Source: Candidatus Vecturithrix granuli
Lineage (GTDB): Bacteria > Moduliflexota > Moduliflexia > Moduliflexales > Moduliflexaceae
Length of the DNA stretch: 36,516 nt
Direction: 5' to 3'
NCBI GenBank assembly: GCA_000739535.1
Contig: DF820470.1
Span: 526,920-563,435 of the forward strand
Below are positions 4,463 through 35,517 of this stretch, in pieces. The position numbers and the translations under genes were made by a program. How positions within the stretch are numbered: position 1 is the first letter of the stretch; every line of letters begins with the position of its first letter. The notes beneath the pieces were generated by a model. It was given only the letters and a program-made list of their open reading frames with translations, was not told the origin of the DNA and searched no databases.

Positions 4463-4468
4463 CGTATT

Positions 4469-4635: not shown

Positions 4636-4664
4636 GGTCTGCCATAAAGGAGAGTGAGAGTATC

Positions 4665-5228
4665 GTGAGCGAAATGTCAGAATTATCGCCAGAATTACAG
4701 CAGAAATTATTGCGCATTGCCAGAGAGACGATGGAGGAATATATCCGCCATCATACAATTCCCGAATTTTCAGTCGAAGAACCGGAATTGACTCAAAAAT
4801 GCGGCGCATTTGTGACTATTAAATCCTCGCAGCGCTTACGCGGATGCATCGGTTATGTTGAGGGATTTAAACCGCTGTATCAGACCGTCATTGACATGGC
4901 CATCGCGGCTTCTACACAAGATCCGCGTTTTGAGCCGGTGCGAGAGCAGGAACTGTCGGATTTGCACCTTGAAATTTCCGTGATGAGTCCGTTGCGCAAG
5001 ATTGCTGATCCGCAAGAAGTTGTGGTTGGAGTTCATGGGATTCTGATCAAACGAGGCCCCCGTAGTGGATTATTACTGCCACAGGTGGCGACAGAATATC
5101 ACTGGGATCGCCAGACTTTTCTGGAACATACCTGCTTAAAAGCCGGATTGCCTCGTAACGCCTGGAAAGATCCGGATGTTGAGATCCTTGTGTTTAGCGC
5201 GCAGGTATTTCATGAGGCAACAGGATGA
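4665..5228 (+). CDS. amrA: AMMECR1-domain protein (AmmeMemoRadiSam system protein A type)
   Basis: The 187-residue protein is a single AMMECR1 domain. QKCGAFVTIKSSQRLRGCIGYVEGFKPLY contains the conserved LRGCIG, followed by AAASTQDPRFEPV, LEISVMSPLRKI, GILIKRGPRSGLLLPQVATEYHWDRQTFLEHTC and AGLPRNAWKDPDVEILVFSAQVF, all in family order. In many bacteria it is encoded near Memo and radical-SAM genes; neither is visible here. The start is GTG 4665 (AAGGAG at 4647-4652, 12 nt) or ATG 4674. Its stop overlaps the next start as ATGA, implying coupled translation with the PHP phosphatase. The biochemical role is not established for the family. Confidence 0.92.
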   Translation: MSEMSELSPELQQKLLRIARETMEEYIRHHTIPEFSVEEPELTQKCGAFVTIKSSQRLRGCIGYVEGFKPLYQTVIDMAIAASTQDPRFEPVREQELSDLHLEISVMSPLRKIADPQEVVVGVHGILIKRGPRSGLLLPQVATEYHWDRQTFLEHTCLKAGLPRNAWKDPDVEILVFSAQVFHEATG

Positions 5229-5995
5229 TTGATCTGCACTGCCACATTTTGCCATACATTGATGATGGCCCTGAAACGCTTCAGGAAACGCTGGAAATGT
5301 GCCGGATGGCTGTTGCGGATGGCATTACGACGATTGTCGCCACGCCTCATCAACAAAACGGCGTGTATGAAAATTCTGCGAAGGCGATTCTGAAAAAAGT
5401 TGAAGAAGTGGCTTTGGAGTTAAAGAACACGGATATTGCCCTGGAACTGCTTCCGGGAGCAGACGTATTCATTGATGTGCACACCGGCGACAAGATTGCG
5501 CAGGGAGAGATTATGACTGTGAACAATACCGGGCGTTATTTTCTCCTGGAATTCCCCGCGCATTCAATTCCACCGAATATTGAGAAGATCATTTTTAACA
5601 TATTACTAAAAAATATCACACCGATTCTGACGCACCCTGAACGGATTGCCGAAGTGCAGGAGTACCCTGACAAAATTTACAACCTGATCTGCTCAGGCGT
5701 GCTCAGCCAGATTACCGCGATGAGTTTGACCGGAGAATTTGGCCCCCGGGCGCAAAAGTGCGCGAAAATTCTGCTGAAACATCATCTGGCGCATATTATT
5801 GCCACCGATGCGCACTCTGTTGCTGGCCGGCCTCCTCTGCTTTCAAAAGCGGTAGATATGGCGAGCCGCATTGTAGGGCATGAAGAAGCCACGGAGATGG
5901 TGACGACAATTCCGCTGCAAGTCATTCGAGGAGAACCCGTGTTAAACTTACCGCCTCCTCTGCCCCTCACCCGTAAACGGTTCTGGTTTTTCTGA
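5225..5995 (+). CDS. CpsB/YwqE-like tyrosine-protein phosphatase (PHP superfamily)
   Basis: A 256-residue PHP-fold metallo-phosphoesterase. Metal-site motifs appear in order: MIDLHCHILPYIDDGP at the N-terminus, ATPHQ near residue 39, LLPGADVFID, LTHPERIAEV near residue 137 and IIATDAHSVAGRPP near residue 194. In Gram-positives, relatives (CpsB, YwqE) dephosphorylate bacterial tyrosine kinases that control capsule and exopolysaccharide synthesis. No BY-kinase is in the window, so the substrate is unknown. The ATG overlaps the amrA stop by 4 bp. Length is close to the usual 245-260. Confidence 0.9.
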   Translation: MIDLHCHILPYIDDGPETLQETLEMCRMAVADGITTIVATPHQQNGVYENSAKAILKKVEEVALELKNTDIALELLPGADVFIDVHTGDKIAQGEIMTVNNTGRYFLLEFPAHSIPPNIEKIIFNILLKNITPILTHPERIAEVQEYPDKIYNLICSGVLSQITAMSLTGEFGPRAQKCAKILLKHHLAHIIATDAHSVAGRPPLLSKAVDMASRIVGHEEATEMVTTIPLQVIRGEPVLNLPPPLPLTRKRFWFF

Positions 5996-6034
5996 GAAGA
6001 ACCTGAAAAACTGAAGTTTTGAACGAGGCGGAGG

Positions 6035-6256
6035 GTGATCGAAAAAATTGTCAAAAACGGCTATTGTCACATTGAAGATCTGCTGGAAAAAGAAACCAGC
6101 GTTGAATTGTTGAAAAGCATGGCAGCTCACGATGTCTGGCTCTATAAAACCCATGAACAGAAAATCAGCGATAATTCTCAGAGCCTCTGCCGCGCTTTCG
6201 AAAAACTAATGTATCGGCGCAATGATAACAAACAAGAAGCAAGCAGAACATGTTGA
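6035..6256 (+). CDS. Unknown small protein, possibly frameshifted
   Basis: The frame from GTG 6035 (GGAGG directly before it) encodes 73 residues with helix-like composition (HIEDLLEKETSVELLKSMAAHDVWLYKTHEQ). I do not recognise a family. Near the end, the +1 frame reads on as KKQAEHVEGSLYSKIENALLLNGGAL and stops at a TGA overlapping the next gene's ATG. That is the arrangement expected of an intact operon member, so a single-base frameshift near 6225-6235 is plausible. The gene sits between the PHP phosphatase and the AlbA_2 gene. Confidence 0.45.
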   Translation: MIEKIVKNGYCHIEDLLEKETSVELLKSMAAHDVWLYKTHEQKISDNSQSLCRAFEKLMYRRNDNKQEASRTC

Positions 6257-6310
6257 GGGAAGCCTTTATTCGAAAATTGAAAACGCGCTGCTGTTGAACG
6301 GAGGAGCGTT

Positions 6311-7474
6311 ATGATGGATGCTCGCATAGAGACTATTCTGCAAGGAGAGTCGGAAACCGTTGAATTCAAAAAATCAACGTCGTTAGTAAAGGAAGCGATT
6401 CAAACCCTGTGCGCTTTTGCCAATCATCATGGGGGATATGTCGTGTTTGGCATTGATGATCACGGGCGGGTACTTGGGCAGCAGGTAAGCGATGATACCC
6501 TGAAAAATATTGCCAATGAGGTCAAACTGAATACTGACCCGAAGTTATACCCCTCGATTGAAACGATAGAAATTCAGGGGAAAACGTGTGTTCTGGTCGC
6601 CATTGAAGAAAGCCCTCTGAAGCCGCATTTTGCGTATGGTCGTCCGTATCGCCGCGTTGGGACAGTGAATCAGCAGATTGATCGTGACATGTATGAATAT
6701 CTGTTACAACAACGCTTCAATGGATATGGGTTTGACCATCAACTCTGCCAGGGGGCCGCGCTCAAGGATCTCGATCCGGACATCATCACTTACTTTCTGG
6801 AAACTGCGAATACCGTGAGGAATTTGAATGAACAGATTTTTCTCCCTCACAATATCCTGCTTGAAAAATTAGATTTGAGCAGAGAAGGGCAATTGACGAA
6901 TGCCGCGGTATTACTATTCGGACGCAATCCCATGCATTTTTTCCTCCAGCATTATGAAACCAAGTGCGGATTATTTCCTTCGGATGAGGGCTATGATGAA
7001 ATTCTTGATGATCGCGAATGGCGATCAAACCTGCTCCTGATGTTTCTGGATGTGTTTGGGTATATGACGGAACATATTCACAAACAAACCCGGAAGAATG
7101 CTGTGTACCGCACGGAAGAGTATGAATTTCCCCTGACTGCGATCCGAGAGTGTATCGTGAATATGCTGGTGCATCGAGATTTCAGGCAGAACATCAAAAA
7201 TACGATAGAGATTCGTCCGGCCGCGATCACATTCATGAATCCGGCGCATTTATTTGCGCCAGCCATTACAATTGACCTGCTGAAAAAGCCCCATGTTTCC
7301 CGTCCGGGCAATAAGCTGATCGCCAAAATTTTTCATTTGATGGGTTTATTCGAGAGCTGGGGCAGCGGGACATTAAAAATTGTCACCGGCATTCGTCACG
7401 CCGGAAACCCCGAACCACAGTTTGATTTCGCCAACGGCCTGTTCCGTGTCATTCTGCCACGTAAGGAGGCATGA
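6311..7474 (+). CDS. AlbA_2 / Schlafen-like ATP-binding domain protein (putative transcriptional regulator)
   Basis: The 387-residue protein starts with ILQGESETVEFKKSTS and AFANHHGGYVVFGIDDHGRVLG, the hallmark of the AlbA_2 (divergent AAA-4, Schlafen-like) domain at about 5-130. A middle helical region follows. A C-terminal GHKL-like segment carries AIRECIVNMLVHRDF (about 275-290) and a late GLFESWGSGT, as in proteins often labelled 'RecG-related helicase' or 'transcriptional regulator'. GGAGG at 6300-6304 serves ATG 6311, or 6314. Relatives occur both as regulators and in anti-phage loci; nothing here decides between these. A truncated ORF overlaps its stop. Confidence 0.88.
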   Translation: MMDARIETILQGESETVEFKKSTSLVKEAIQTLCAFANHHGGYVVFGIDDHGRVLGQQVSDDTLKNIANEVKLNTDPKLYPSIETIEIQGKTCVLVAIEESPLKPHFAYGRPYRRVGTVNQQIDRDMYEYLLQQRFNGYGFDHQLCQGAALKDLDPDIITYFLETANTVRNLNEQIFLPHNILLEKLDLSREGQLTNAAVLLFGRNPMHFFLQHYETKCGLFPSDEGYDEILDDREWRSNLLLMFLDVFGYMTEHIHKQTRKNAVYRTEEYEFPLTAIRECIVNMLVHRDFRQNIKNTIEIRPAAITFMNPAHLFAPAITIDLLKKPHVSRPGNKLIAKIFHLMGLFESWGSGTLKIVTGIRHAGNPEPQFDFANGLFRVILPRKEA

Positions 7475-7533
7475 TGGATCATACTGAGGCGGCGTCGCGA
7501 TGTCTCAGCCTATTGGGGTTGGTCATGGTATAA
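7474..7533 (+). pseudogene. 5' stub of a gene cut by a family 3 element end
   Basis: ATG 7474, placed 4 nt after GGAGG and overlapping the AlbA_2 stop, encodes MDHTEAASRCLSLLGLVMV and stops at 7533. That is exactly where the family 3 terminal sequence (7533-7553) begins. The coupling looks like a real downstream operon gene whose remainder was lost at the element junction. The original product cannot be told. Confidence 0.35.
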
Positions 7534-7553
7534 TAAAGTGAGTTCGGGACAAG
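7533..7553. repeat. Solo end of family 3 element
   Basis: It matches 19 of 21 bases of the terminal inverted repeat at 8188-8208 (gtgagttcggga core). No opposite end is seen nearby. It is followed within 6 bp by a family 2 element, so insertions may be nested. Confidence 0.5.
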
Positions 7554-7558
7554 GTTTT

Positions 7559-7661
7559 TACAGCATTATTCATAACGATTGACACGGCTAAAAACCAGGT
7601 TTCTTCAAGAAACCTGGTTTTTGTGACAGGTATCAGGTCAACGGTTCTGCATAATGCTGTA
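7559..7661. repeat. Palindromic element, family 2 copy 2
   Basis: The ends are tacagcattattca and tgcataatgctgta, with inner cgaTTGACAC and GGTCAACGG, as in the copy at 4020-4136. Its centre is different, being the terminator-like hairpin at 7589-7622. It is non-coding. Confidence 0.65.
7589..7622. terminator. Bidirectional terminator-type hairpin
   Basis: A near-perfect stem (aaaaaccaggtttctt and its complement) is flanked by an A-run on the left and a T-run on the right, so it can terminate in both directions. It shares the TTTCTTsAAGAAAC core with the hairpins at 14282 and 15187. Confidence 0.65.
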
Positions 7662-7857
7662 GCCCCAGCGGGGCGGGATGTGGGTAGCACAAGAGGCATC
7701 CCCTGCTGTCCTGTTGAGTCCCGGAGGGACGGTATATGTGGAGAAGTTTAAGCACGTCGGGAACTTCCGTGCGCCCCACATACTGCCTCTCCGAGGCTCA
7801 TCAGAAATGAGGGCGCGGACAGTTTCTACACGTATAATTCTTTCCTCTGCAATGACC
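7662..7857. other. Non-coding spacer with weak palindromes
   Basis: It contains GTCCCGGAGGGAC and an imperfect hairpin at about 7733-7782 (tatgtgg opposite ccacata). The phrase 'cccgaagggacggtatatgg' type recurs at 8226-8243, so this is probably decayed repeat DNA. No gene is supported. Confidence 0.35.
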
Positions 7858-7894
7858 TCACTTTGTCCACAGGAGGTAACTGGGACAGGACGCT

Positions 7895-8091
7895 GGCCGG
7901 CCAGTATTAATAAGCACTTTCGAAGTAAATGGCTGTAATGTGATGTTACAGCTCACCGGATTTTGATCCAAATCCTGATAAAGCGTGGTGCCTAAATTGA
8001 AAACTTTGGCAGCTTTGGTGTCGTTGTAAAAGATTTCCGCATTGTTTGAAGCGCCAGGATTAAGGGTGAACCAATGCTTCAATGTCATCAT
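7895..8091 (-). pseudogene. C-terminal remnant of a right-handed beta-helix surface protein
   Basis: The minus frame reads WFTLNPGASNNAEIFYNDTK followed by AAKVFNLGTTLYQDLDQNPV and SCNITLQPFTSKVLIN. This resembles the closing strand and 'DLDGNPVSGSITLQPFTSKVLI' tail I associate with parallel beta-helix/pectate-lyase-like exported proteins. Nothing upstream (to the right) continues the fold, so only the tail survives. A short open frame runs on to 7858 but is not family-like. Confidence 0.45.
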
Positions 8092-8187
8092 TCCTTATCT
8101 ACACACGATCTTCATCTGCCTGCCAGGAGAAGATCTCGAGGTGAGTCAACTTTTTTTGCCTGGCACCTTCCGCCCAGACACCCTATG

Positions 8188-8436
8188 ATAACGTGAGTTC
8201 GGGATAAGAAAAACGCTGTAAAAGTCCCGAAGGGACGGGATATGGTAGCCCAGGGTGTCAGCCCTGGGGCTGAAAATCCGATGTGTGTGCTCTCCCCTCC
8301 CCTCCCCGTGTTCTGCCGCCGCTCGCGGCGGCAGAACACGGGGAGGGGGAACCCGTTTCTTGTCCCAGGGTTCACACCCTGGGCTACCAGATTTTGCCCC
8401 GTTGGGGCTTACAAGCTTATCCCGAACTCACGTTAT
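8188..8436. repeat. 249-bp MITE-like element, family 3
   Basis: Perfect 21-bp terminal inverted repeats lie at 8188-8208 (ataacgtgagttcgggataa plus g) and 8416-8436. Nested inside are a second inverted pair (tagcccaggg / ccctgggcta) and a central perfect hairpin of about 23 bp per arm (gtgttctgccgccgc and complement). It has no transposase ORF. It resembles a non-autonomous element or a highly structured intergenic repeat. Confidence 0.72.
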
Positions 8437-19839: not shown

Positions 19840-20946
19840 TTGTTGTTCTCCTTTGCGCTGGCGGACCGGATTCAACTCCTGCGCCAGGAAAAAGACGCGG
19901 CGCACGGCTGTACCTACACGTTTAACACGGCGGACAATTGGTGGTTCGGGCCGAATGCTCTGCCCGCGATTGCCAGCGACACTACCATTGACGGCAATGG
20001 CGCGATCCTGGAGGTGGGCGCCGGCGTCACGCACCTGCGTTTTTTCTATGTCGGCGCCGACCCGGCCAAGTTTTCCAGCCCGGTGACGACCGCGGGGACA
20101 AGGGGCGCGCTCACCTTACGCCACCTCACCCTGCGCGGCGGCATCGCTAAAGGAGGCAACAGCGTCTATGGCGGCGCCGGGCTAGGCGGGGCGATCTTTA
20201 ACCAGGGGAGCGTCACGCTCGACCGCGTCACGCTCACGACCAACAGCGCCGTGGGGGGCAGCAGCAGCGGCACTTTAATGCCGGCAATTGACGCCAGTGA
20301 TGATCTTTCCTGCCCGACGACCGACCAGCGCGGCGCGGCCGGGTGGCGCAAACTGCGATATCGGTGCGTTCGAATATGTGGTGTACACTCTGGCGTATAC
20401 CGCCGGCGCCAACGGTACAATCAGCGGAACCAGCCCGCAAACCTTTGAACATGGGGCGGATGATACCGCAGTCGAAGCCGTGCCGAACACGGGCTATCAT
20501 TTTGTGCAGTGGTCGGATGACTCCACCGTCAATCCGCGCACGGATACGAACGTGACCGCGAATGTCAGCGTGACGGCGGAATTTGCCATCAACACCTACA
20601 CGCTGACCTACACCGCCGGGGAACACGGCACAATCAGCGGGACGACTCCGCAGACGGTTGAACATGGATCGAATGGAACGACGGTGGAAGCCGTGCCGAA
20701 TGCGAACTATCATTTCACACAGTGGAGCGACGGCGTGATGACGGCCTCGCGCACGGACACGAACGTGACGGCGTGACCTACACGCCGGCCGCCAACGCCT
20801 CTGGCGCGGCGACCGTCACGGTGACGCTCACAGACAATGGCGGGACGGCCAACGGCGGTGTGGATACCTCCGCGGCCCAGAACTTCACGATTACCGTCGT
20901 TGCCAATCAACCGGAGGTCAACAGCTATATTCTGTGGACCCAATAA
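19840..20946 (+). pseudogene. Decayed surface protein: beta-helix region, Listeria-Bacteroides-type repeats and Ig-like tail
   Basis: Frame 1 from about 19840 gives YTFNTADNWWFGPNALPAIA, ALTLRHLTLRGGIAKGGNSV and GGAIFNQGSVTLDRVTLTTN, a parallel beta-helix pattern. It ends at DLSCPTTDQRGAA. Frame 2 takes over at about 20330 with ARPGGANCDIGAFE and two InlB/'bacterial repeat' units (YTAGANGTISGTSPQTFEHG and [20 protein letters not shown], each followed by Y-H-F-x-Q-W-S-D), stop 20774-20776. Frame 1 resumes with [20 protein letters not shown]...NFTITV and stops at 20944-20946. At least one frameshift and two deletions are needed. It was probably an exported adhesin-like protein; the signal peptide is not recognisable. 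Composition is clearly GC-richer than the flanks. Confidence 0.65.
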
Positions 20947-22061: not shown

Positions 22062-23474
22062 CTATCTTTCAGGGACAATCCGATGTTTGAGGGCGGTGAG
22101 TAGTTTTTCATGAATGTCGCCGAAGCCGCCATTGGACATGATAAGCACGACGTCGCCGGGGGCAAGGCGTTCGGCTAAATAATTCACAATATTTTCCACG
22201 CCGCTGATATGAAAGGCTTCCACATTGTGCTGCCGCAAATCCTGCACGAGTTGATCTGTTGATAACCGATGCCCTTCCGGGGCTTTGTCCGGCCGGTGTA
22301 CATCGGCGAAAATGACGATATCGGCGTCAAGAAAGGCGTCCACAAAATTCTGTTGGAACACGTCGCGCCGGGTGGCGGCGGTACGAGGTTCAAACACGCT
22401 CCAGACCTTTTTGCCATGATAATGTTCTTTCACCGCCTCAAGCGTGACTTTAGCCGCCGTGGGATGGTGCGCAAAATCATCAATCACGACAATATCGTTC
22501 ACAATACCGCGCACTTCCTGACGACGTTTGACACCCTGAAAGGTGCTAAATCCGGCGTCAATTTCTTGCGGTGTCAGCCCGAGGTGATTGAGAACGACTG
22601 TGGCTCCAAGTAAATTTAAAAGATTATGGCGTCCGATGAGAGATGTGTGCAATACACCAAAGGGGCGGCCCTGGCGCAAGACCGTAAATTGCGTTTCAGC
22701 ACCCTGTTTTGAAATCCCGTCAATTGTCCACTCGGCCTGAGGTGAATAGCCGTAAGTTTGTAACGGAGAGGCCGCAGAAGCAATCACTTCGCAAACGTTG
22801 GGATCGTCAACACAGGCCACGAGCAAGCCATGGTTCGGAATCAATTTCACAAACTTCCCGAATTCCTGTTTGATGCGATCCAGGTTGTCGTAAATATCAG
22901 CATGATCGTATTCGATGCTAGTGATGATGCCGGTGGTCGGACGATAATGGACAAATTTAGGCACTTTATCAAAATAGGCGGTGTCGTATTCGTCGCCTTC
23001 AATCACAAAGTGCTCGCCTTCAGCGACACTATAAGTGGAATGAAAATTATTCAGCACTCCTCCCACCAAAAATCCGGGGTCGCGCCGGGCATGAGTCAAT
23101 GTCCAGGCCAGCACGCCGCTCGTGGTGGTTTTGCCATGCGTACCGGTCACAACGACGGAATGGCGATTACGGATAAATAGTTCAGCTAAAATTTGCGGCA
23201 GCGAGGAATAGGGTATTCCGCGTTCGCGCAACGCTTCGGCTTCGGGATTGATGCGCGTAATGACATTGCCTACCACCACATGATCCGGATTCCAATCCAG
23301 ATTCGAGGCTTTGAATCCTTCAAAATAGGGGATGCCAAGTTGGGCAAGCTGGTCGCTCATCGGCGGATAGACCTGTTCGTCAGATCCGCGCACTTCGTAC
23401 CCTTTGGCTTTGAGCATACCTGCAAGTGAACCCATGGCCATGCCGCAAATCGCCATCAGATGAATTTTTTTCAT
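22062..23474 (-). CDS. mpl: UDP-N-acetylmuramate:L-alanyl-gamma-D-glutamyl-meso-diaminopimelate ligase
   Basis: A cytosolic Mur-ligase of 470 residues, used in murein recycling to attach recovered tripeptide to UDP-MurNAc. It has KKIHLMAICGMAMGSLAGMLKAKGYEVRGSDEQVYPPMSDQL (Mpl-type Rossmann start), the ATP loop VVTGTHGKTTTSG (110-119), EGDEYDTAYFDKVPKFVHYRP, EYDHADIYDNLDRI and FEPRTAATRRDVFQQ. EGDEYD with FFD/YFD-KxPKF is diagnostic for Mpl rather than MurC. ATGA overlaps the serine hydrolase stop, so it is the last gene of a coupled asnB-hydrolase-mpl operon. It implies meso-DAP peptidoglycan and import of cell-wall peptides. Confidence 0.95.
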   Translation of the reverse strand: MKKIHLMAICGMAMGSLAGMLKAKGYEVRGSDEQVYPPMSDQLAQLGIPYFEGFKASNLDWNPDHVVVGNVITRINPEAEALRERGIPYSSLPQILAELFIRNRHSVVVTGTHGKTTTSGVLAWTLTHARRDPGFLVGGVLNNFHSTYSVAEGEHFVIEGDEYDTAYFDKVPKFVHYRPTTGIITSIEYDHADIYDNLDRIKQEFGKFVKLIPNHGLLVACVDDPNVCEVIASAASPLQTYGYSPQAEWTIDGISKQGAETQFTVLRQGRPFGVLHTSLIGRHNLLNLLGATVVLNHLGLTPQEIDAGFSTFQGVKRRQEVRGIVNDIVVIDDFAHHPTAAKVTLEAVKEHYHGKKVWSVFEPRTAATRRDVFQQNFVDAFLDADIVIFADVHRPDKAPEGHRLSTDQLVQDLRQHNVEAFHISGVENIVNYLAERLAPGDVVLIMSNGGFGDIHEKLLTALKHRIVPER

Positions 23475-24586
23475 AGGTATTTGTCCATTGCGATTACGAT
23501 GGTATCGTGAATTTTGGGGCGCATGTTGATAAAGGTTTGGTTGTTTCTGGAAGGATGAACCCGGTTTGAGAAGAGCAGTATCAGCAATTTGCGTTTGAGG
23601 TCAAGCCAGATTGACGTACCGGTGAATCCGGTGTGTCCAATTGATTTTTCAGAAAGGAGCGTACCTCCTGAAAAAGTATTGTGGGAAGGCGTATCCCACC
23701 CCAACGCGCGCGTAGAGCCTTCGACAAGATTTTGGCGAGAGAAAAATTTATGAATAAGCAGTTTGGGGATCGTCTCATCTTCCCCGGTGTAGCAGTGCAA
23801 CAATTTCAGCATACAGCGCCGCACATCGTCGAGAGTGGAGAAAAGCCCGGCATGACCCGCCACGCCGCCCATCGCATACGCATTTTCATCATGGACCTGG
23901 CCGCAAATCACGCGATGCCGCCATTCACAGCGTTCGGTTGCCGCATAGTCCCCTTCTCGAATCACATTCCCTGGCTGAAAAAAAGTGCGCATCATACCAA
24001 AAGGTCGAAAGATCATTTCGTCGCAATAGGCGTCAAGGGTGGTACCGCTGATTCTTTCAATGGCATGACCTAACAGGATAATGCCCAGATCGCTGTATTT
24101 ACTGAATTGGCCGGGAGTATAAATCAATTCTGTCTGACACACTTTCTCGATTACAAATTTTTTGGCGTCAGGGCTGCCGATAAAAGATTCATCCTGTTGT
24201 CGTTCAGCTTCTTGCTGGACATCTTCGTACAATGGCAGATGATCCGTAAATCCGGCGGAATGAGTCAGAAGATGGAGAAATGTGATCTGATCGTATGACA
24301 GTTCTGGGATATATTTTTTGACCGAATCGTGCAACTTCAACTGTTTATCGCGCACCAGCAGCATCACGGCTGTTGTGGTGGCAATCACTTTGGTTAATGA
24401 CGCCAGGTCAAAGATCGTATCTTCGTGTAAATCACGATGTTCAGGGTACACCTGAGCATATCCGAGCGCCTGACGATAGACAATTTCTCCGTTATGATCA
24501 ACTAACAGGGCGATTCCGGGAGTTGCGCCATTTTCGATGGCATTGTGTAACGCTCGATCAATATAGCTAAAATCCTGTAAGCTCAT
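23471..24586 (-). CDS. Beta-lactamase-fold serine hydrolase (class C / PBP4*-like)
   Basis: A 371-residue member of the AmpC/EstB/D-aminopeptidase superfamily. The nucleophile motif is S63-LTK (FDLASLTKVIAT). The YxN position is Y164-SD, followed by LGIILLGHAIE. GHTGFTGTSIWLD supplies the KTG-equivalent HTG. TPGIALLVDHNGEIVYRQALG at the N-terminus and AYAMGGVAGHAGLFST in the middle also fit. There is no signal peptide, so a cytoplasmic peptidase or esterase is likely. It overlaps asnB and mpl by 4 bp on each side. With Mpl next door, a muropeptide-type substrate is the reasonable inference. Confidence 0.88.
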   Translation of the reverse strand: MSLQDFSYIDRALHNAIENGATPGIALLVDHNGEIVYRQALGYAQVYPEHRDLHEDTIFDLASLTKVIATTTAVMLLVRDKQLKLHDSVKKYIPELSYDQITFLHLLTHSAGFTDHLPLYEDVQQEAERQQDESFIGSPDAKKFVIEKVCQTELIYTPGQFSKYSDLGIILLGHAIERISGTTLDAYCDEMIFRPFGMMRTFFQPGNVIREGDYAATERCEWRHRVICGQVHDENAYAMGGVAGHAGLFSTLDDVRRCMLKLLHCYTGEDETIPKLLIHKFFSRQNLVEGSTRALGWDTPSHNTFSGGTLLSEKSIGHTGFTGTSIWLDLKRKLLILLFSNRVHPSRNNQTFINMRPKIHDTIVIAMDKYL

Positions 24587-26523
24587 GCGTCCTTTTCCTG
24601 CGGTTTATCTAAATATTCACGACACCATAGCTCAAATACGAGTACGGCCCAGAGCTGCGAGCTATAATCCTGAATACCTTTTTGATGTTCGTTGAGCAAT
24701 GACAACACGTATTCACTCTTGATATAGCCGCGCTGCATGGTGGTTTGATCTTGAAACACATCGGTCGTGTAAGTTTTTAAGTCTTTTTTGAACCATTCAC
24801 CGATGGGAACGGCAAATCCATGTTTACGCCGATCGATAATGCCGGATGGTAATAACGACCGCAGGGCTTCTTTCAAAATATACTTGGTCGTCAATTTGCG
24901 GATTTTCAGTTCGGCCGGAATTGAGGCGATGTATTCGACAAATTCATAATCCAGAAACGGCACACGTCCTTCAAGCGAGGCCGCCATTGTCATCCGATCT
25001 TCTTTGACGAGCAAATCCCCGGGCAGATAAGTATGAAAATCAGCATGCAAGGTGCGCGTCAGATCATCAAGCTCTTCAGATTTTTTATAATACTGGGAGA
25101 TGACGTACTCGCTCGGTGCGAGATTCTGTCCAAATCCTTCTGCAAACAGTGCTTCTTTAGCTTCGTCCTGAAAACAGGTCATCATGTTGATATGGCGCAG
25201 CATGGGAGACGTTTCCGGGCAGTCTAAAAAGCGTTTCAGTAACAGAAAATATTCTTTGACCGCTGAAGTTCTGGAAACCGGCAGGACTTTCGAGAGCGTC
25301 ATCGCCAGCGACTGCAAAAATTTCGGATATTTGTGATAATGTTCAAACAGGTTTTCGATTAAATAGCGGCGATAACCTGCGAAAATTTCATCTCCCCCTG
25401 TGCCGGATAAACAGACCGTGACGTGCTGCCGCGCCAGTTTTGAAAGATAATAGGTCGGAATCGCGGAAGAATCGGCAAAGGGTTCATCAAAATATTTGAT
25501 GAGCAGCGGAAGAATTTCCAGCGCGTTCGGTTCGACTTCAAACTCATGGTGCTCGGTATTAAATAGCGTGGCGACTTTACGCGCATATTTGCGTTCATCG
25601 TAATATCCGGCGTTCGGAAAACCAATGGAAAAGGTTTTCACCGGGGCATTTGCTGCTTGCGTCATAAGTGCGGTAATCGCGCTTGAATCAATGCCACCGC
25701 TTAAAAACGCGCCTAACGGCACATCGCTGATCATCCGGCGTCGCACCGCTTCTTGCAAACGTTCGCGCACTTCTGAAGCATAGTGCTTGATCTGGTTTGA
25801 ATCCAGTGCAGGTCTGTGCAAACCATCTTCTTCCGGTTCCGGCTTTTGATAAGGAATCGTCCAATAGCGCTGGATTGACACTTCTCCATCAACATATTCC
25901 AGGGTATGGGCCGGAGGCAGTTTTTTAATATTTTTGAAAATCGAGGATGGGTCTGGCACATAGAGAAATGAAAAATAATCACTCAGGGCTTGCAGATTTA
26001 ATTCCCGCGACACCATCGGATCATACAACAGGGATTTCATTTCTGAGGCAAAGGTCAGTTTATCACGTCCGATATGGTAAAAGAGCGGTTTAATACCGAT
26101 CCGGTCGCGCGCCAGCAGCAAGGTTTGACGTTTCGTATCCCAGATGGCAAAGGCAAACATCCCATTTAAGCGTGTGACCAGGTCGCGTCCCAACTCTTCA
26201 TATAAATGCACCAGCACTTCTGTATCCGAATCTGTTCGGAATTGATGATTCTTTTTTTCCAACTCCTGTCGCAATTCTTTATAATTATAAATCTCCCCAT
26301 TATAAGCGATCCATATCGTGCTATCTTCATTTGTGAGGGGTTGATGGCCTTTCTCCAGATCGATAATGCTTAACCGGCGAACGCCCAGTCCAACATTCGC
26401 TTTGGCATAGATGCCGACATCATCAGGTCCTCGATGTTCAAGCGCGGATACCATATTTTGCAATAATCGTTTTGAGACATCACGCTTCTGGTAATAATTC
26501 ACAATTCCAGCAATTCCACACAT
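24583..26523 (-). CDS. asnB: Asparagine synthetase (glutamine-hydrolysing) family protein
   Basis: The start is set at ATG 26523, because the amidotransferase nucleophile Cys must directly follow Met1 (MCGIAGIV); an in-frame GTG lies 6 nt upstream. The 646-residue protein has a class II glutaminase domain (RRLSIIDLEKGHQPL, IAYNGEIYNYKELR, TDSDTEVLVHLYEE) and a synthetase domain with the PPi loop LSGGIDSSAI, LSGTGGDEIFAGYRRY and EGRVPFLDYEFVEY. Family members make asparagine, but some amidate meso-DAP or other envelope metabolites. Coupling to the hydrolase and mpl genes favours a cell-wall peptide role, as inference. A promoter lies at 26601-26629. Confidence 0.93.
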   Translation of the reverse strand: MCGIAGIVNYYQKRDVSKRLLQNMVSALEHRGPDDVGIYAKANVGLGVRRLSIIDLEKGHQPLTNEDSTIWIAYNGEIYNYKELRQELEKKNHQFRTDSDTEVLVHLYEELGRDLVTRLNGMFAFAIWDTKRQTLLLARDRIGIKPLFYHIGRDKLTFASEMKSLLYDPMVSRELNLQALSDYFSFLYVPDPSSIFKNIKKLPPAHTLEYVDGEVSIQRYWTIPYQKPEPEEDGLHRPALDSNQIKHYASEVRERLQEAVRRRMISDVPLGAFLSGGIDSSAITALMTQAANAPVKTFSIGFPNAGYYDERKYARKVATLFNTEHHEFEVEPNALEILPLLIKYFDEPFADSSAIPTYYLSKLARQHVTVCLSGTGGDEIFAGYRRYLIENLFEHYHKYPKFLQSLAMTLSKVLPVSRTSAVKEYFLLLKRFLDCPETSPMLRHINMMTCFQDEAKEALFAEGFGQNLAPSEYVISQYYKKSEELDDLTRTLHADFHTYLPGDLLVKEDRMTMAASLEGRVPFLDYEFVEYIASIPAELKIRKLTTKYILKEALRSLLPSGIIDRRKHGFAVPIGEWFKKDLKTYTTDVFQDQTTMQRGYIKSEYVLSLLNEHQKGIQDYSSQLWAVLVFELWCREYLDKPQEKDA

Positions 26524-26600: not shown

Positions 26601-26629
26601 TTTATAATCCTTCATTATGATTCTTTCAA
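26601..26629 (-). promoter_or_regulatory. Sigma-70-like promoter of the asnB operon
   Basis: On the minus strand, TTGAAA (26629-26624), a 17-nt spacer and TATAAA (26606-26601) give a good promoter, with about 70 nt of leader to ATG 26523. It lies in the 180-bp gap after the glycosyltransferase at 26704, marking the start of a separate transcript. Confidence 0.6.
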
Positions 26630-26703: not shown

Positions 26704-27684
26704 TCAATGAAACCATTGGCGCAAATTTCCTCTTGTCTCTGCTGTCGCAAAATGTTGGGTTCGACGCCGTTTCACAAGGATTTCAGGCCAATATCGCAAG
26801 ATTTCTCCAATGACAGACAACAAATAGGGTTCCCAAATAAGGATGTAGATGAGACTGCATATTTCATACCAGGCGATCCGGAGCAGATCAGGAGCGAAGG
26901 TGCGCCAACATTCATTTTTGAACAGCATGAGATAACGATTTTTTAAGGAATGGCGTCGAACCCATTTTGGAATATCGCCCCGTTTCCCAGTCCCCCAGGT
27001 TCGGAAATGGGTCCCGACGGCTTCCGGCGCATACATGCACTTCCAGCCTGCTAATCTGGCTCTCCATGCTAAATCGACATCCTCTTTGTATGCAAAAAAC
27101 AATTCATCCAGATACTCTTCTCCCGGATACATGATCTGGTCCAGCATGGCCTTGCGGTATAAGCAGGCGGCGCCTGATGCGCCAAACACTTCTTCCCGAA
27201 CGTCATATTGGCCCCGATCTTCTTCCCGCTGTCCCCGATCAAGAGCGCGGCGATTTTTCAAGATGACAATCCCTGTGCTATCAAGTTTGCTTGTATTTTC
27301 GCCGCTTAACAATTTTCCCAACGCAATCCCAACCATCGGATCAGAAGACATCAGATGAACCAGCCGTTCAATAAAATCTGCTGCCAAAGTGACATCCGCA
27401 TTCAGGAGCAGCACAAAATCGCCATGGGAATGCTGAATACCCTGATTATTTCCCCGGCAAAATCCGGTATTGCTGCTATTCCGAAGGAGCGTCAGTGTGC
27501 GGAGTTCCTGATGGCGGTGTTGAAATGCTTCGATCACTTGACAGGAATCATCTGTTGATGCATTATCTACGATCACGATTTCGATCGGTGTGTAGGTCTG
27601 TTGCATCAAAGCAGACAGGCATGCTGGCAAGTATTTTGCTCCATTCCAATTCACAATAATGACCGAAACCAGCGGGTGTTCCAT
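26704..27684 (-). CDS. Family 2 glycosyltransferase (rhamnosyltransferase-like, WbbL type)
   Basis: The 326-residue GT-A enzyme has VSVIIVNWNGAKYLPACLSAL, EIVIVDNASTDDS (nucleotide-binding Asp), NTGFCRGNNQGI, GDFVLLLNADV (the DxD position appears as NAD), a VFGASGAACLYRK acceptor region, YLDELFFAYKEDVDLAWRARLAGWKCMYAP (ED general base) and HSLKNRYLMLFKN. This order is typical of WbbL-like transferases that add rhamnose or similar sugars to lipid-linked or surface glycans. Hydrophobic stretches near 280-310 suggest membrane association. It begins 16 nt after the DPM1-like transferase stop. Confidence 0.9.
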   Translation of the reverse strand: MEHPLVSVIIVNWNGAKYLPACLSALMQQTYTPIEIVIVDNASTDDSCQVIEAFQHRHQELRTLTLLRNSSNTGFCRGNNQGIQHSHGDFVLLLNADVTLAADFIERLVHLMSSDPMVGIALGKLLSGENTSKLDSTGIVILKNRRALDRGQREEDRGQYDVREEVFGASGAACLYRKAMLDQIMYPGEEYLDELFFAYKEDVDLAWRARLAGWKCMYAPEAVGTHFRTWGTGKRGDIPKWVRRHSLKNRYLMLFKNECWRTFAPDLLRIAWYEICSLIYILIWEPYLLSVIGEILRYWPEILVKRRRTQHFATAETRGNLRQWFH

Positions 27685-27700
27685 TAGCAGTGATCATTGA

Positions 27701-28780
27701 TTACTGTTTACCGGGCAATCCCGGGCAATATCCCGGGAGATTCACCGTATTGGCAACGACGTAAATCGGTTTCCCCTGCGACTCATGATAGGTTCTCATG
27801 ATCACTTCGCCGAGGAGCCCCATGCCGATAAATTGGATTCCCAGGATAAAAAAGAGCACAGACAGTAAAAACATCGAATTATTGGCTATCACCATGTCAT
27901 AGCGGATACGGGTATAGACGACACCCGCCATCAACCCGACGGAACTGAACATCGAGATTAAGCCGAGCAATCCGAAAATTTGAATCGGTTTGGTCGAATA
28001 ACTCAGCAAAAACTTCACGGTCATCAAATCGAGAATCACGTGAATGGTTCGTGAAATGCCATATTTACTCTTCCCGTGGGTTCTGGCGCGATGATTGACC
28101 GGCATTTCGGTCACTTTTACGCCGATCCAACTTGCTAAGGCTGGAATAAAGCGGTGCATCTCGCCATACAATTCAATTCTTTGAAGGACTTCCCGCCGAT
28201 AGGCTTTTAACGTACAGCCATAATCATGGAGATGGACGTTTGTGGTAAGCGAAATCAGCCGGTTAGCAAGATTGGAAGGCAGGCGGCGCGTCCAATATTT
28301 ATCCTGCCGATTTATCCGCCACCCGCTGACGACATCATAGCCTTCATCAATCCGTTCAAGCAATTTGGGGATATCATTAGGATCATTTTGTAAATCCCCA
28401 TCCATCGGAATAATCACATCACCAACAGCAGCGTCAAAGCCGGCAGACATCGCTGCTGTTTGTCCAAAATTGCGGCGCAGGGTAATCAGTTTAATCTCCG
28501 GGCGCTGTTGGGCAGCTTCAGTGATAATTTTCGTGGTGTTATCGGAACTGCCATCATCAACAAAGATGATCTCGTAGGTTTTGTGTAAATTGTCCAATAC
28601 TTCCTGTAATTCAGGCAAAAGCAGGCGAATATTGGTCTCTTCATTATACACGGGAATGACAATTGAACAATCAACCGTGTGTTTTTCAGCTAAACCATTC
28701 ATACAATAAAAAAGACGCTCCAGCCTGCCCGGCCAGTCTTCCGGGCGCGGGATGTGTCTAATTTCTCCATCACAATCCAT
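27701..28780 (-). CDS. DPM1/GtrB-like polyprenyl-phosphate glycosyltransferase
   Basis: ATG 28780 shares a base with the regulator's stop (TAATG), giving 359 residues. An internal ATG at 28702 would give 333 and a more typical N-terminus. The GT2 domain shows CSIVIPVYNEETNI, YEIIFVDDGSSDNT, LRRNFGQTAAMSAGFDAAVGD, IIPMDGDLQNDPNDIP (DxD) and VSGWRINRQDKYWTRRLPSNLANRL. Two C-terminal transmembrane segments follow (IFGLLGLISMFSSVGLMAGVVY; MFLLSVLFFILGIQFIGMGLL), as in GtrB/ArnC-type enzymes that charge undecaprenyl phosphate. It likely supplies a lipid-linked sugar for the neighbouring GT2 or for export. Confidence 0.92.
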   Translation of the reverse strand: MDCDGEIRHIPRPEDWPGRLERLFYCMNGLAEKHTVDCSIVIPVYNEETNIRLLLPELQEVLDNLHKTYEIIFVDDGSSDNTTKIITEAAQQRPEIKLITLRRNFGQTAAMSAGFDAAVGDVIIPMDGDLQNDPNDIPKLLERIDEGYDVVSGWRINRQDKYWTRRLPSNLANRLISLTTNVHLHDYGCTLKAYRREVLQRIELYGEMHRFIPALASWIGVKVTEMPVNHRARTHGKSKYGISRTIHVILDLMTVKFLLSYSTKPIQIFGLLGLISMFSSVGLMAGVVYTRIRYDMVIANNSMFLLSVLFFILGIQFIGMGLLGEVIMRTYHESQGKPIYVVANTVNLPGYCPGLPGKQ

Positions 28781-29775
28781 TATTCATACAGTTCTTGAGC
28801 CAATTGTCCGTAATCTCGTGGCCCTTTTTGGTCGGAAAACATTTCCACAATTTCAACCATCCCTTTTTTGAGAAATGTGTACAGAAGTTTAGTTGTTGCC
28901 AAATAATTAATCGGACTCACATTAATCACATCTTGAATAGTGCGCTGACCATTAATCAATACCAGAACTTTTTGAGCCGCGGGTTTGGCTTCATCGGCTT
29001 TTTCAATGTCTGAGATTTTCAGCACCATGTCAAATGCGGGCATGGCCTCTTTATAACGAAGATACTCCGCCCGTTGATCAAATCCTTCCATTAATAATTT
29101 ATTGATAGGGGTGGCAATGGCGCGCGTCTCTGCCCGATCGCTTGAATCAAACTCAAACAATCCTTCTTCCCAGGCCAGGATGCGATACATGGCTTCTTCG
29201 CTTTTATACTTATCCAACGTGGCCTGAACAATTGCGCCACGATCAAAGTAGATTTTACCGACTTTATTGCCGTTGGTAATTTTTAACCCACCTGTTTTCT
29301 GGGTCATTTGCAGGGTTTGCAACACCTCGGCCAGATTTAATTGCTCTAAATTGCCTTTCAGATCGGTTTCGGGTTCCTGGGCAGGCGCAGGTGGGCGCAT
29401 ATAAGCCATGCGTTGTAAAATCGACTTAATTCTGGCGGTTACTTCTGAAATGTGAAAAGGTTTCGAAATATAATCATCCGCCCCGAGGCCGAGTCCGGTG
29501 ACACGATCTTGCAATTCGCCTTTTGCCGTCAAAAAAATGAACGGGATATTGGCGGTTTCCGGGTCATTCCGAATCTGTCTGCACAATTCGAATCCATCCA
29601 TTTCCGGCATCGCCACGTCCGCAAGAATCAGATCAGGTTTTTCGTTCCTGATGGCCTCTAATGCTCCCGCGCCATTTAGTGCCTGCGAGGTATCGTAGCC
29701 TGCCTTTTTCAGACTTGAAGATAGCAGCGTTAATACTTTTTCATCATCATCAGCGATTAAAATTCGTTGTTTCAT
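28780..29775 (-). CDS. Response regulator: receiver plus PATAN (DUF4388) domain
   Basis: The start at ATG 29775 has GGAG 8 nt upstream; the longer open frame is not family-like. The 331-residue protein begins with a receiver domain, MKQRILIADDDEKV (acidic pocket), phosphoacceptor D53 in LILADVAMPEMDG, then FLTAKGE and DYISKPF (Thr and Lys switch residues). Residues about 135-245 (LKGNLEQLNLAEVLQTLQMTQKTGGLKI..GKIYFDRGAIVQA) match the DUF4388/PATAN pattern. The C-terminus (VLVLINGQRTIQDVINVSPI...LLYTFLKKGMVEIV) looks like a winged helix. PATAN regulators commonly act by protein contact in motility or surface development. It leads the operon of two glycosyltransferases. Confidence 0.9.
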   Translation of the reverse strand: MKQRILIADDDEKVLTLLSSSLKKAGYDTSQALNGAGALEAIRNEKPDLILADVAMPEMDGFELCRQIRNDPETANIPFIFLTAKGELQDRVTGLGLGADDYISKPFHISEVTARIKSILQRMAYMRPPAPAQEPETDLKGNLEQLNLAEVLQTLQMTQKTGGLKITNGNKVGKIYFDRGAIVQATLDKYKSEEAMYRILAWEEGLFEFDSSDRAETRAIATPINKLLMEGFDQRAEYLRYKEAMPAFDMVLKISDIEKADEAKPAAQKVLVLINGQRTIQDVINVSPINYLATTKLLYTFLKKGMVEIVEMFSDQKGPRDYGQLAQELYE

Positions 29776-29848
29776 GCCTCGTTCTCCATTCCTCTCGCGC
29801 TGTTCGCGATGAACTTCCATGATAAAAAGATCTACGAGTGTTAGAGCA

Positions 29849-29877
29849 AACGTAGGAGGGAGGCCAAAACTCGTCAA
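29849..29877 (-). promoter_or_regulatory. Possible promoter of the regulator-glycosyltransferase operon
   Basis: On the minus strand, TTGACG-like (29877-29872), 17 nt and TACGTT (29854-29849) precede ATG 29775. The -10 is weak. It would be divergent from the promoter at 29940. Confidence 0.35.
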
Positions 29878-29939
29878 GGAAATTTCACCATAGAAATAGA
29901 GGAATGTACTTTTTGAAAGAAAATCCTGATGAGTTCTTC

Positions 29940-29968
29940 TTGACAAATCAGGAGGGTTTACATAAGAT
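29940..29968 (+). promoter_or_regulatory. Strong sigma-70-like promoter for the unknown gene and GT9
   Basis: TTGACA (29940-29945), exactly 17 nt, then TAAGAT (29963-29968). An AGGAGAG ribosome site at 29982-29988 and the start codon follow. It drives the operon divergent from the PATAN regulator. Confidence 0.72.
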
Positions 29969-32275: not shown

Positions 32276-33448
32276 ATGCAAATCGAACAAAGAACATGGA
32301 CAGAAGCCCATGGATGGGCACCTGAGCTTCCGGGAGGCCTTTCAGAATCTGCCCGATTGATGCTGGTCTTTGGCGCCACTTCTGTTTTGAGAAAGCAACA
32401 ACTGCTTGAACAGGTCAAAAGATACTACCCGCACGCCCACATTCTCGGCTGTTCGACCGCTGGTGAGATTTGCGGAACCCGGGTGTCAGATGATTCTCTG
32501 GTCATTACCGCAGTCAGTTTTCAGCATACATCGTTTAGAGGCGCCCAGATAGAACTGAGCCAGGTAATGGATAGTTTCCAGGCTGGTAAGCATTTGGCGC
32601 AAGCGATTCCTCCCTCGGTCCCCTCTGAAACTTCTGCTGATAAGGCTGAGGAACTGGTACATATTCTGGTGCTTTCAGATGGATTACATGTGAATGGCAG
32701 CGATCTGGTGCGTGGTTTGACGGAATATTTGCCTGAAAAGGTTACTGTGACGGGTGGGCTGGCCGGAGATGGCGCACGTTTCGGAGAGACTTGTGTATTT
32801 TGGGATCAGCCCCCTGCAAGAGACGTCGTTGCTGCCCTGGGATTTTATGGAAAGCGGTTGCGCATCGGTTTTGGCTCTTTGGGTGGTTGGGATTCTTTTG
32901 GTCCGGAAAGACTCATTACACATTCAAAGGGAAATGTCCTGTATGAAATGGACGGACATTCCGCTCTGGGATTGTATAAAAAGTATTTGGGCGAGCATGC
33001 GAAAGAACTTCCGGCTGCAGGACTTTTGTTCCCGTTGAGCATTCGCACCAGGCCAGGTGAGATCGGAGTTGTTCGCACGATTTTGTCTGTTGACGAACAA
33101 GAGCAGAGCATGACGTTTGCCGGTGATGTGCCTGAAGGCGCGTATGCGCGTTTGATGAAAGCGAATTTTGACCGGCTGATTGATGGGGCTATCGGAGCAG
33201 CTCACACAAGCTGTCAGACCATCGGTTCGATTTCCCCTGATCTGGCAATTCTTATTAGCTGCGTTGGCAGAAAACTCGTTCTGAGGCAGCGTATCGAAGA
33301 AGAGGTTGAGGGAGTGCGTGATGTCCTGGGGGAGCACACCGCCCTGACCGGGTTCTATTCTTATGGTGAGATTTCTCCGTTTACCCTCGGCTCCAAATGC
33401 GAATTACATAACCAAACGATGACGATTACCACGTTTTCGGAGGAATAA
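32276..33448 (+). CDS. FIST-domain sensor protein
   Basis: The 390-residue protein contains FIST_N (SARLMLVFGATSVLRKQQLLEQVKRYYPHAHILGCSTAGEICGTRVSDDSLVITAVSF; later LVLSDGLHVNGSDLVRGLTEYLPEKVTVTGGLAGDGARF) and FIST_C (about 220-375: GHSALGLYKKYLGEHAKELPAAGLLFPL, LISCVGRKLVLRQRIEEEVEGVRDVLGEHTALTGFYSYGEISPF). FIST is a predicted ligand-binding (amino acid-like) sensory domain found with signalling proteins. AAGGAG lies 8-9 nt before ATG 32276. Only 2 nt separate it from the histidine kinase, so it most probably feeds its signal to that kinase. It has no membrane segments, so sensing is cytoplasmic. Confidence 0.94.
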   Translation: MQIEQRTWTEAHGWAPELPGGLSESARLMLVFGATSVLRKQQLLEQVKRYYPHAHILGCSTAGEICGTRVSDDSLVITAVSFQHTSFRGAQIELSQVMDSFQAGKHLAQAIPPSVPSETSADKAEELVHILVLSDGLHVNGSDLVRGLTEYLPEKVTVTGGLAGDGARFGETCVFWDQPPARDVVAALGFYGKRLRIGFGSLGGWDSFGPERLITHSKGNVLYEMDGHSALGLYKKYLGEHAKELPAAGLLFPLSIRTRPGEIGVVRTILSVDEQEQSMTFAGDVPEGAYARLMKANFDRLIDGAIGAAHTSCQTIGSISPDLAILISCVGRKLVLRQRIEEEVEGVRDVLGEHTALTGFYSYGEISPFTLGSKCELHNQTMTITTFSEE

Positions 33449-33450
33449 GT

Positions 33451-35517
33451 ATGACACAACTCCACAGGTTGTTGCAACGACAACTCAAGCGACACTTTGG
33501 GAACGAAGCCAGTATCCCCGATGAATGGCAAGGATTTATCCGCGATGTTAGTGATGCCTATCAAGAATCTGATATTGATCGGGAAATGCTTGAACGTTCC
33601 CTCGAACTGAGTTCACAAGAATTGCTTGAAGCCAACTTGCAAATGCAAGCTGTTTTTCAAGCTCTCCCGGATCTGTTGTTTCGACTGGACAGTGAAGGGG
33701 TGATTCTTGATTTCAAAGCCGGGAAGATCAATGACTTTCTCCACCAGCCCAAAGACCTGATTGGAAAACGAATCCAGGAGGTTCCGTTCAAGCTCGTTGG
33801 CGATTTATTTCATGAAGCCATCCAGCGAATACAAAAGGAAAAATCCATAATTACTATTGAGTATTCCCTGACCCTGCAGGGGCAAGAATGTTTTTATGAA
33901 GCCCGCCTGGCGCCTTTACTTGATGCTCAAATCGTCGTCGTTATTCGAAATCTCACCCAGCGCAAAAAGATGGAGCAAGCTCTGCGCCAGGCGTACGACG
34001 AATTGGAAGAACGCGTTGAACAGCGCACGATGGAACTCAAGAAAGCTAACGAACAGTTAGCCGCGCTCTATAAGGTGGGGCAGACTATCACTGCGCCGCT
34101 GAATCTCAATGTCGTGCTCAATGTGATCGCTCGCAGTACGGTCGAACTATTGGGTACTGATACGGGGGTTATTCTGCTGTTGGATGAAACCAGAGAGATA
34201 TTGACGATCCAGGGGGCTTTCGGATTAAGCGAAAAGGTGATGAAAGGAACCCATGATCGAATTGGTGAAAGTATTGCCGGGCGGGTAGTGCAAACGGGGC
34301 AGCCAATCATTGCCAATGATCTACTCCACGATCCGCGCTTCTTTAACCCTTCTGCGGCCAATGAAGGTCTCCTGGCCTGCGCCAGTGTCCCTTTAAGTGT
34401 GGGAGGGAAAATTATTGGCACCCTGGATGTACACAGTAAATCTGATCCTTATGCGTTCAATGAGAAGCATATTCAAACCCTGAGTATGCTGGCCAGCCAG
34501 GCTGCTATCGCGATTGAGAATGCCCGGCTGTATGAACAGTTGCAATTGGCTCATGATGAACTGGAGGCGCGGGTACAACAGCGCACGGCTGAAGTGCTTG
34601 CCGCCAATATGCAATTACACGAAGAGATTGCCGAGCGCAAACGGGTAGAAGAAGCGCTCCGCAAGCTGAATGAAGAACTTGAACATCGAGTAGAAGCCCG
34701 AACAATTGAATTGAAAGAAATCAATACTGCTTTGCGAGAGTCGCTTGAAACTCTGAAGGAAACCCAAGATCAGCTTATACAGGCAGAGAAAATGGCCGCC
34801 CTGGGAGGCCTGGTGGCTGGTATCGCGCACGAAATTAATACCCCCATCGGAATCGGGGTAACAGCGGTTTCGTATCTTGAACAGAAAACGCAAGAATTCG
34901 AAAAAAAGTATGAGCGAGGTCAAATGAATCGCTCTGATCTGGAAAAGTATGTGAAAATAGCCAAAGAAGCGACAATCATGATCTTGAAAAATTTATGGCG
35001 GGCGGCGGACCAGATTCAGAGTTTTAAGCAAGTGGCGATTGATCAGACTTGCGACGAACAACGGCGATTCAAACTGAAAGCTTGCATTGATGACCTGTTG
35101 CTCAGTCTTCACCCGAAACTCAGCAAAACTCAGCATACCATAACAGTACACTGTCCTGAAGACCTTGAACTCACCAGTTATCCTGGCGTATTTTCTCAGA
35201 TTCTCACGAACCTTATTCTCAACTCGTTGAGCCACGGATTCGAACAAAAAGCTCAGGGAACGATGATGTTGCAGATCACCTGTGATCATAATATGCTGCG
35301 GTTACAATACAGCGATGATGGATGCGGGATGGCGGCAGAAACGCGTTTGCGGATTTTTGAGCCATTTTACACGACAAAACGAGGGCAGGGTGGTACCGGT
35401 CTGGGGTTACATATTGTCTATAATCTGGTGACCCAACAATTGGGAGGCAGGATCGAATGTGAGAGCACGCCGGGAATAGGCACCACCTTTCACATTCAGA
35501 TTCCTATACATCTGTGA
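33451..35517 (+). CDS. PAS-GAF sensor histidine kinase
   Basis: The 688-residue, soluble kinase has the following order. A PAS-like domain spans about 65-175 (MQAVFQALPDLLFRLDSEGVILDFKAG). A coiled coil with EERVEQRTMELKKANEQL follows. A GAF domain spans about 212-355 (NVVLNVIARSTVELLGTDTGVILLL; IAIENARLYEQL), then a second long coiled coil. The H-box LVAGIAHEINTPIG has His460. The HATPase has N-box NLILNSLSHGF (about 586), DDGCGM (about 621), IFEPFYTTK and GTGLGLHIVY (about 648). There is no receiver domain and no cognate regulator next to it; the PATAN regulator upstream is not adjacent. It is translationally close to the FIST gene. Its 3' end overlaps the converging gene by 22 nt. Confidence 0.95.
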   Translation: MTQLHRLLQRQLKRHFGNEASIPDEWQGFIRDVSDAYQESDIDREMLERSLELSSQELLEANLQMQAVFQALPDLLFRLDSEGVILDFKAGKINDFLHQPKDLIGKRIQEVPFKLVGDLFHEAIQRIQKEKSIITIEYSLTLQGQECFYEARLAPLLDAQIVVVIRNLTQRKKMEQALRQAYDELEERVEQRTMELKKANEQLAALYKVGQTITAPLNLNVVLNVIARSTVELLGTDTGVILLLDETREILTIQGAFGLSEKVMKGTHDRIGESIAGRVVQTGQPIIANDLLHDPRFFNPSAANEGLLACASVPLSVGGKIIGTLDVHSKSDPYAFNEKHIQTLSMLASQAAIAIENARLYEQLQLAHDELEARVQQRTAEVLAANMQLHEEIAERKRVEEALRKLNEELEHRVEARTIELKEINTALRESLETLKETQDQLIQAEKMAALGGLVAGIAHEINTPIGIGVTAVSYLEQKTQEFEKKYERGQMNRSDLEKYVKIAKEATIMILKNLWRAADQIQSFKQVAIDQTCDEQRRFKLKACIDDLLLSLHPKLSKTQHTITVHCPEDLELTSYPGVFSQILTNLILNSLSHGFEQKAQGTMMLQITCDHNMLRLQYSDDGCGMAAETRLRIFEPFYTTKRGQGGTGLGLHIVYNLVTQQLGGRIECESTPGIGTTFHIQIPIHL

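Follow-up and report, generated by a model that had tools for sequence, protein, structure and literature searches.

A serine hydrolase-mpl pair in Candidatus Vecturithrix granuli and the probable role of Mpl as a peptide entry point where MurC and MurD are not found

Candidatus Vecturithrix granuli carries an operon in which a serine hydrolase and the murein-tripeptide ligase Mpl probably catalyze consecutive steps of murein-peptide recycling. Mpl is probably also the only point at which a stem peptide enters onto UDP-MurNAc in this organism, because MurC and MurD, and in its family also MurE, were not found. We analyzed a window of 36,516 nucleotides (contig DF820470.1, positions 526,920 to 563,435), which lies on a contig of 597,372 bases in an assembly of 8,384,694 bases in 21 contigs. 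An initial annotation of the same DNA had proposed a murein-peptide recycling and amidation operon and was silent on MurC, MurD, and MurE, which are undetected in the V. granuli genome.

The asnB, hydrolase, and mpl genes lie on the minus strand and are joined by two 4-bp ATGA overlaps, which can be read directly in the window, as first annotated (Table 1). At the level of sequence, the operon structure and the family assignments of all three genes are established. The 4-bp hydrolase/mpl overlap also occurs in two unrelated genomes, G045 and G155. We set the start of asnB at the ATG at 26523, and not at the GTG further upstream at 26529, because class-II amidotransferases require a Cys at residue 2 (MCGIAG). 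A shared promoter had also been proposed; the TTGAAA-N17-TATAAA element is present and matches the consensus at 10 of 12 positions, but the proposal found no statistical support, and a consensus promoter scan that demands a final T has no entry at 26629-26601. A promoter of asnB-hydrolase-mpl at this site is plausible from its sequence. The GT2-GT2-response regulator order upstream of asnB also occurs in the family relative G001. Elsewhere in the window, two overlapping plus-strand frames at 19840-20776 carry a repeated TYTAGxxGTISGTxPQT...W motif and look like one repeat protein split by a frameshift, and at 32276-35517 a FIST-domain sensor gene is followed directly by a PAS/GAF histidine-kinase-like gene.

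Table 1. Features of the asnB-hydrolase-mpl locus, in window coordinates
Feature	Coordinates	Strand	Basis
asnB, long-form glutamine-dependent amidotransferase (GATase_7 + Asn_synthase), 646 aa	24583..26523	-	Pfam/NCBIfam
PF00144 serine hydrolase, cytoplasmic, YfeW/PBP4B-like, 371 aa	23471..24586	-	PF00144, 190 bits
mpl, UDP-MurNAc:murein-tripeptide ligase, 470 aa	22062..23474	-	TIGR01081, motifs, tree
ATGA stop/start overlap, asnB/hydrolase	24583..24586	-	
ATGA stop/start overlap, hydrolase/mpl	23471..23474	-	
Promoter-like TTGAAA-N17-TATAAA 5' of asnB	26601..26629	-	by eye
GT2, GT2 (GtrB/ArnC-like), response regulator + DUF4388, upstream of asnB	26704..29946	-	

The ligase is, by its sequence, a true Mpl, with ligation of the murein tripeptide as its predicted reaction. 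It scores 399.5 against TIGR01081 (Mpl; cut-off 388.7) and 334.4 against TIGR01082 (MurC), below the cut-off of 335.1; the corresponding ligase of genome G002 passes the MurC model with 360.6, yet reaches 426 for mpl. Among full-length structures, Mpl 3hn7 comes closest, with 306 bits against 231 for MurC. The ligase carries EYDTAYFDK, FEPRTAATRR, and MSNGGF, all matching Mpl. The Mpl-specific (S/T)AFFDKRSK motif with its upstream Tyr, which we take to be absent from other Mur ligases, is present as EYDTAYFDKVPK, with substitutions that occur in other Mpls too. The His/Arg residues of the MurC L-Ala site (QPHRYxR; QPHRY/F-x-R) were not found in the ligase, where FEPRTAATRR stands in their place. 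The residues used in this comparison are those given in PMC3060825. In a phylogenetic tree, the ligase falls inside the Mpl clade (support 94/97, long stem of 1.32); its neighbors there are Mpls linked to the hydrolase in other phyla, and the MurCs of dcw clusters lie elsewhere. On the basis of the tree, the motifs, and the nearest structures, we rejected the reading of this ligase as a MurC. It shares family score, motifs, clade, and predicted reaction with the Mpls of E. coli and Psychrobacter arcticus (3hn7); however, known Mpls accompany MurC, MurD, and MurE, whereas this one is present in a single copy, and no other MurC/Mpl-type ligase was found in the V. granuli genome.

We searched the V. 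granuli genome (G000), its family relative (G001), and two genomes of a sister genus (G002 and G003) with TIGR01081, TIGR01082, PF08245, and TIGR01087. In these four metagenome assemblies, which represent three genera of the order, neither MurC nor MurD was found by profile search, an approach that a non-homologous substitute would escape. MurE was not found in the two genomes of the V. granuli family by the same searches and is kept in G002 and G003. The PF08245 matches in the V. granuli genome are Mpl, MurF, a CapB-like protein, and FolC only. A concatenated query found neither MurD nor MurI in the four genomes, while its controls matched MurD in G045 and G038 and MurI in G045; the E. coli MurI query misses the two PF01177 (Asp/Glu racemase family) proteins of V. 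granuli. MurA, MurB, MurF, and MraY all score above their cut-offs in V. granuli, and MurG, FtsW, FtsI, Ddl, and DapF are also present. In G001 (3.4 Mb), MurA and MurB were not found, though MurF, MurG, MraY, and Ddl are present, which may reflect an incomplete bin or sugar salvage.

The dcw remnant of V. granuli reads rsmH-ftsL-ftsI-murF-mraY-ftsW, contains no N, and leaves no space for murE or murD, with junctions of 15 bp between ftsI and murF and of 10 bp between mraY and ftsW. Its counterpart in G001 reads rsmH-ftsL-ftsI-(alpha/beta hydrolase)-murF-ddl-mraY-ftsW, and the cluster of G003 reads murF-mraY-ftsW-murG-DUF1611-murE. The DUF1611/DgcN-like gene between murG and the relocated murE (G003:C55:1-19000, 4259-8277; also G002:C173) scores 252 bits in G003 against a cut-off of 480 and is a candidate to provide the D-Glu or dipeptide step by another route in the sister genus. 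As a general substitute for MurC/MurD it was rejected, since strong matches occur only in G002 and G003. Our literature search found no report of MurC/MurD-less bacteria with Mpl, and the main text of the genome paper contains none of the terms "peptidoglycan," "mur," "murein," or "cell wall" (PMC4312070).

The same combination recurs outside the order. We crossed by hand the murD and mpl searches, which both covered one set of 241 genomes, and counted as Mpl-bearing those with a TIGR01081 score of at least 273 bits (n = 57); 17 of the 57 have no second, MurC-type match. A MurD match over the cut-off is missing in 13 of these 17, from 10 families (G000-G003, G036, G046, G048, G092, G093, G155, G191, G214, and G219), and in 1 of the 40 Mpl genomes that have MurC. 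The Fisher p value for this co-absence is 1e-8, or 1e-7 without G092 and G214, which are doubtful for their sub-threshold MurD matches; both values are descriptive, as the genomes are not independent. Six ligases of further genomes were rescored, and five exceeded the Mpl cut-off; the G036 ligase is borderline (350 for Mpl, 338 for MurC).

These absences could also be read as ordinary recycling in organisms whose MurC, MurD, and MurE exist but were lost from the assemblies or are too divergent. The genomes are metagenome bins; that of V. granuli was scored 93.8% complete and has scaffold gaps, such as an N run in the OppABC locus L289 (C11), and ten named genomes with the hydrolase beside ldcA and/or mpl hold five to seven Mur ligases. 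We nevertheless consider this explanation unlikely, as MurC and MurD are missing in four of four genomes from three genera, the dcw junctions are closed and gap-free, the co-absence recurs in other families, and the authors' revised completeness for V. granuli UASB270 (candidate phylum KSB3) is 99.0% (PMC4312070).

The known biochemistry of Mpl bears on what it may ligate here. Psychrobacter Mpl (PaMpl) turns over at 260 per min on tripeptide and 0.7 on L-Ala, a preference of some hundredfold; it is slowly active on L-Ala and L-Ala-D-Glu, and E. coli mpl in multicopy can complement the loss of function in a murC(Ts) strain (PMC3060825). By analogy with these slow activities, a MurC-like role for Mpl is possible. 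Carried further, Mpl would have taken over the MurC (L-Ala) step or a dipeptide step, with other enzymes replacing MurD and the peptide built stepwise on the nucleotide, a scheme that the retention of MurE in G002 and G003 would suit. We regard this scheme as quite improbable: the tripeptide-site motifs are all retained and the MurC L-Ala residues absent, no MurD-like ligase was found in G000-G003, and MurE too was not found in the V. granuli family. Because PaMpl so strongly prefers the tripeptide, a free tripeptide pool from recycling and scavenging is the simplest reading.

The pairing of the hydrolase with mpl extends well beyond this family. Within 2.5 kb of 80 named hydrolase relatives, we counted ldcA 18 times, murQ 18, murA 11, a sodium-solute symporter 11, mpl 9, and anmK 2, with neighbor families recognized from their sequences and ldcA additionally by Pfam. 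Binatota, Myxococcota, and Thermodesulfobacteriota have members with the genes ordered ldcA-hydrolase-mpl, as do genomes G031, G036, G038, G045, and G155. In V. granuli, mpl lies directly 3' of the hydrolase on the same strand; ldcA is not directly upstream of the hydrolase, where asnB stands instead, and an ldcA homologue is located at G000:C19:581103. A hydrolase-mpl pair that acts as a murein-recycling unit, usually as ldcA-hydrolase-mpl in other phyla, is well supported by these comparisons. The recycling proposed in the initial annotation is well supported for the hydrolase and mpl, whose order is conserved in several phyla; the amidation proposed for AsnB found no support. The logic of peptide release, trimming, and religation is that of the AmpD-LdcA-Mpl route of Gram-negatives; however, an unrelated serine hydrolase here probably takes the place of AmpD, and asnB occupies the place of ldcA by position only. 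We rejected the idea that MurC/MurD absence is common to all carriers of the operon, given the Mur ligases of the ten named carriers.

The hydrolase itself has the features first described for it: S63-L-T-K66, Y164-S-D, and H318-T-G lie in conserved columns, and its N-terminus has no hydrophobic signal sequence. The active-site motifs are kept across 24 aligned relatives. Its family score, SxxK and Tyr motifs, and fold all place it in PF00144, and its AF2 model (pLDDT 93) has the predicted fold of esterases, DD-peptidases (PBP), and class C beta-lactamases. Over 386 columns, it shares 31% identity with E. coli YfeW/PBP4B (E value 8e-48), and it scores 173.5 against the PBP4B equivalog NF002968, below the cut-off of 385; by sequence it is a PBP4B homologue of another equivalog. 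B. subtilis AmiE also belongs to PF00144 (PMC10653849) and is a MurNAc-L-Ala amidase encoded in a murQ cluster (PMC5061867), and E. coli yfeW lies in the order murQ-murP-yfeW. The hydrolase shares with YfeW (PBP4B) and AmiE (YbbE) the PF00144 fold, SxxK, YSD, and murein-recycling neighbors, AmiE being likened by description only, and with YfeW also the GQVHDE...GGVxGHAGLFS and GHTGxTGT motifs. Unlike them, it has no signal peptide and is partnered with mpl instead of murQ/murP.

Most likely, the hydrolase would be an AmiE-like MurNAc-L-Ala amidase. DD-carboxypeptidase activity has been reported for E. coli PBP4B (Vega and Ayala 2006, as cited in PMC5061867), and DD-peptidases are among the fold neighbors, so that a DD-carboxypeptidase or another peptidase that trims the stem peptide deserves consideration. 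We judge a trimming enzyme to be the less likely candidate, since the murQ, anmK, and murA neighborhoods point toward sugar release and trimming is already covered by LdcA in the common ldcA-hydrolase-mpl operon.

In the mechanism that we propose, the hydrolase would free or trim the stem peptides of imported muropeptides in the cytoplasm, Mpl would use ATP to ligate free L-Ala-gamma-D-Glu-mDAP to UDP-MurNAc, and MurF, MraY, and MurG would then complete lipid II. In G002 and G003, the dipeptide may be the entry, because MurE is kept there. Here we infer the bond that is cut, the direction of flux, the role of Mpl as sole entry, and the source of the peptide. A closed recycling loop cannot sustain net growth, and therefore an unseen peptide source is required; the cell would depend on recycled and scavenged, or otherwise preassembled, peptide. 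Two further loci of V. granuli were noted. A gene of the GH25 lysozyme family, whose product begins with a lipoprotein-like stretch, lies 3' of ftsW in the dcw remnant (G000:C20, L105 5883-6839), and OppA-OppB-OppC-type peptide transporter genes are followed by an enolase-superfamily epimerase (G000:C11, L289 4510-10519), which scores 217 bits against the L-Ala-D/L-Glu epimerase model (cut-off 500). As predicted from sequence, the GH25 gene and the transporter/epimerase genes would fit peptide scavenging.

The part of AsnB is less clear-cut. Its N-terminal Cys2 is intact, and its best model is TIGR03108 (XrtA/PEP-CTERM amidotransferase) at 638.9 bits, under the cut-off of 816.9; it scores 547 against TIGR01536 (cut-off 267). 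It has the class-II glutaminase and long-form Asn synthetase domain of the XrtA/PEP-CTERM amidotransferase and of AsnB/LtsA, but differs from the former in falling below the TIGR03108 cut-off. The V. granuli genome encodes five long AsnB paralogues, this one included, and all are nearest to the XrtA/PEP-CTERM model and below its cut-off. The asnB-hydrolase-mpl order recurs in G001, of the same family, where the co-located AsnB is 70% identical, so the order is not unique to V. granuli, but it was found in no genome outside the family. Nor is this AsnB close to that of E. coli (36% identity), and on these two points the initial annotation is not refuted.

Amidation of mDAP by AsnB, as first suggested, would act on the recycled peptide before its religation by Mpl. 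The translational coupling kept in G001 would favor it, and the replacement of E. coli AsnB Glu348 by Thr (SGTGGDE) and an insertion in the synthetase domain loosely recall the criteria for mDAP amidotransferases, namely, that residues for Asp binding are lost and an additional substrate loop is present (PMC8554201). However, the insertion is common to all five paralogues, the best model is an exopolysaccharide amidotransferase, and no asnB adjoins the hydrolase-mpl pair outside the family. We consider mDAP amidation very unlikely, and infer that AsnB is a co-translated, family-specific addition that would form an amide on an unassigned substrate.

By standard teaching, the stem peptide is made along a near-universal route, MurC to MurF, whose enzymes are antibacterial targets, and Mpl has long been regarded as a dispensable recycling enzyme. 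We tentatively suggest, as a possibility short of a probability, that several bacterial lineages, that of V. granuli among them, build peptidoglycan without MurC/MurD. In these, the stem peptide, or the L-Ala-D-Glu with which it starts, would be assembled away from the nucleotide or acquired from other bacteria, and Mpl would be the essential loading step. MurF and MraY are confirmed in the lineage of V. granuli, which is among the genomes that combine Mpl with missing MurC and MurD. If the suggestion is true, the recurrence of such genomes would mean either a second route to the wall peptide or a dependence on neighbors for it.
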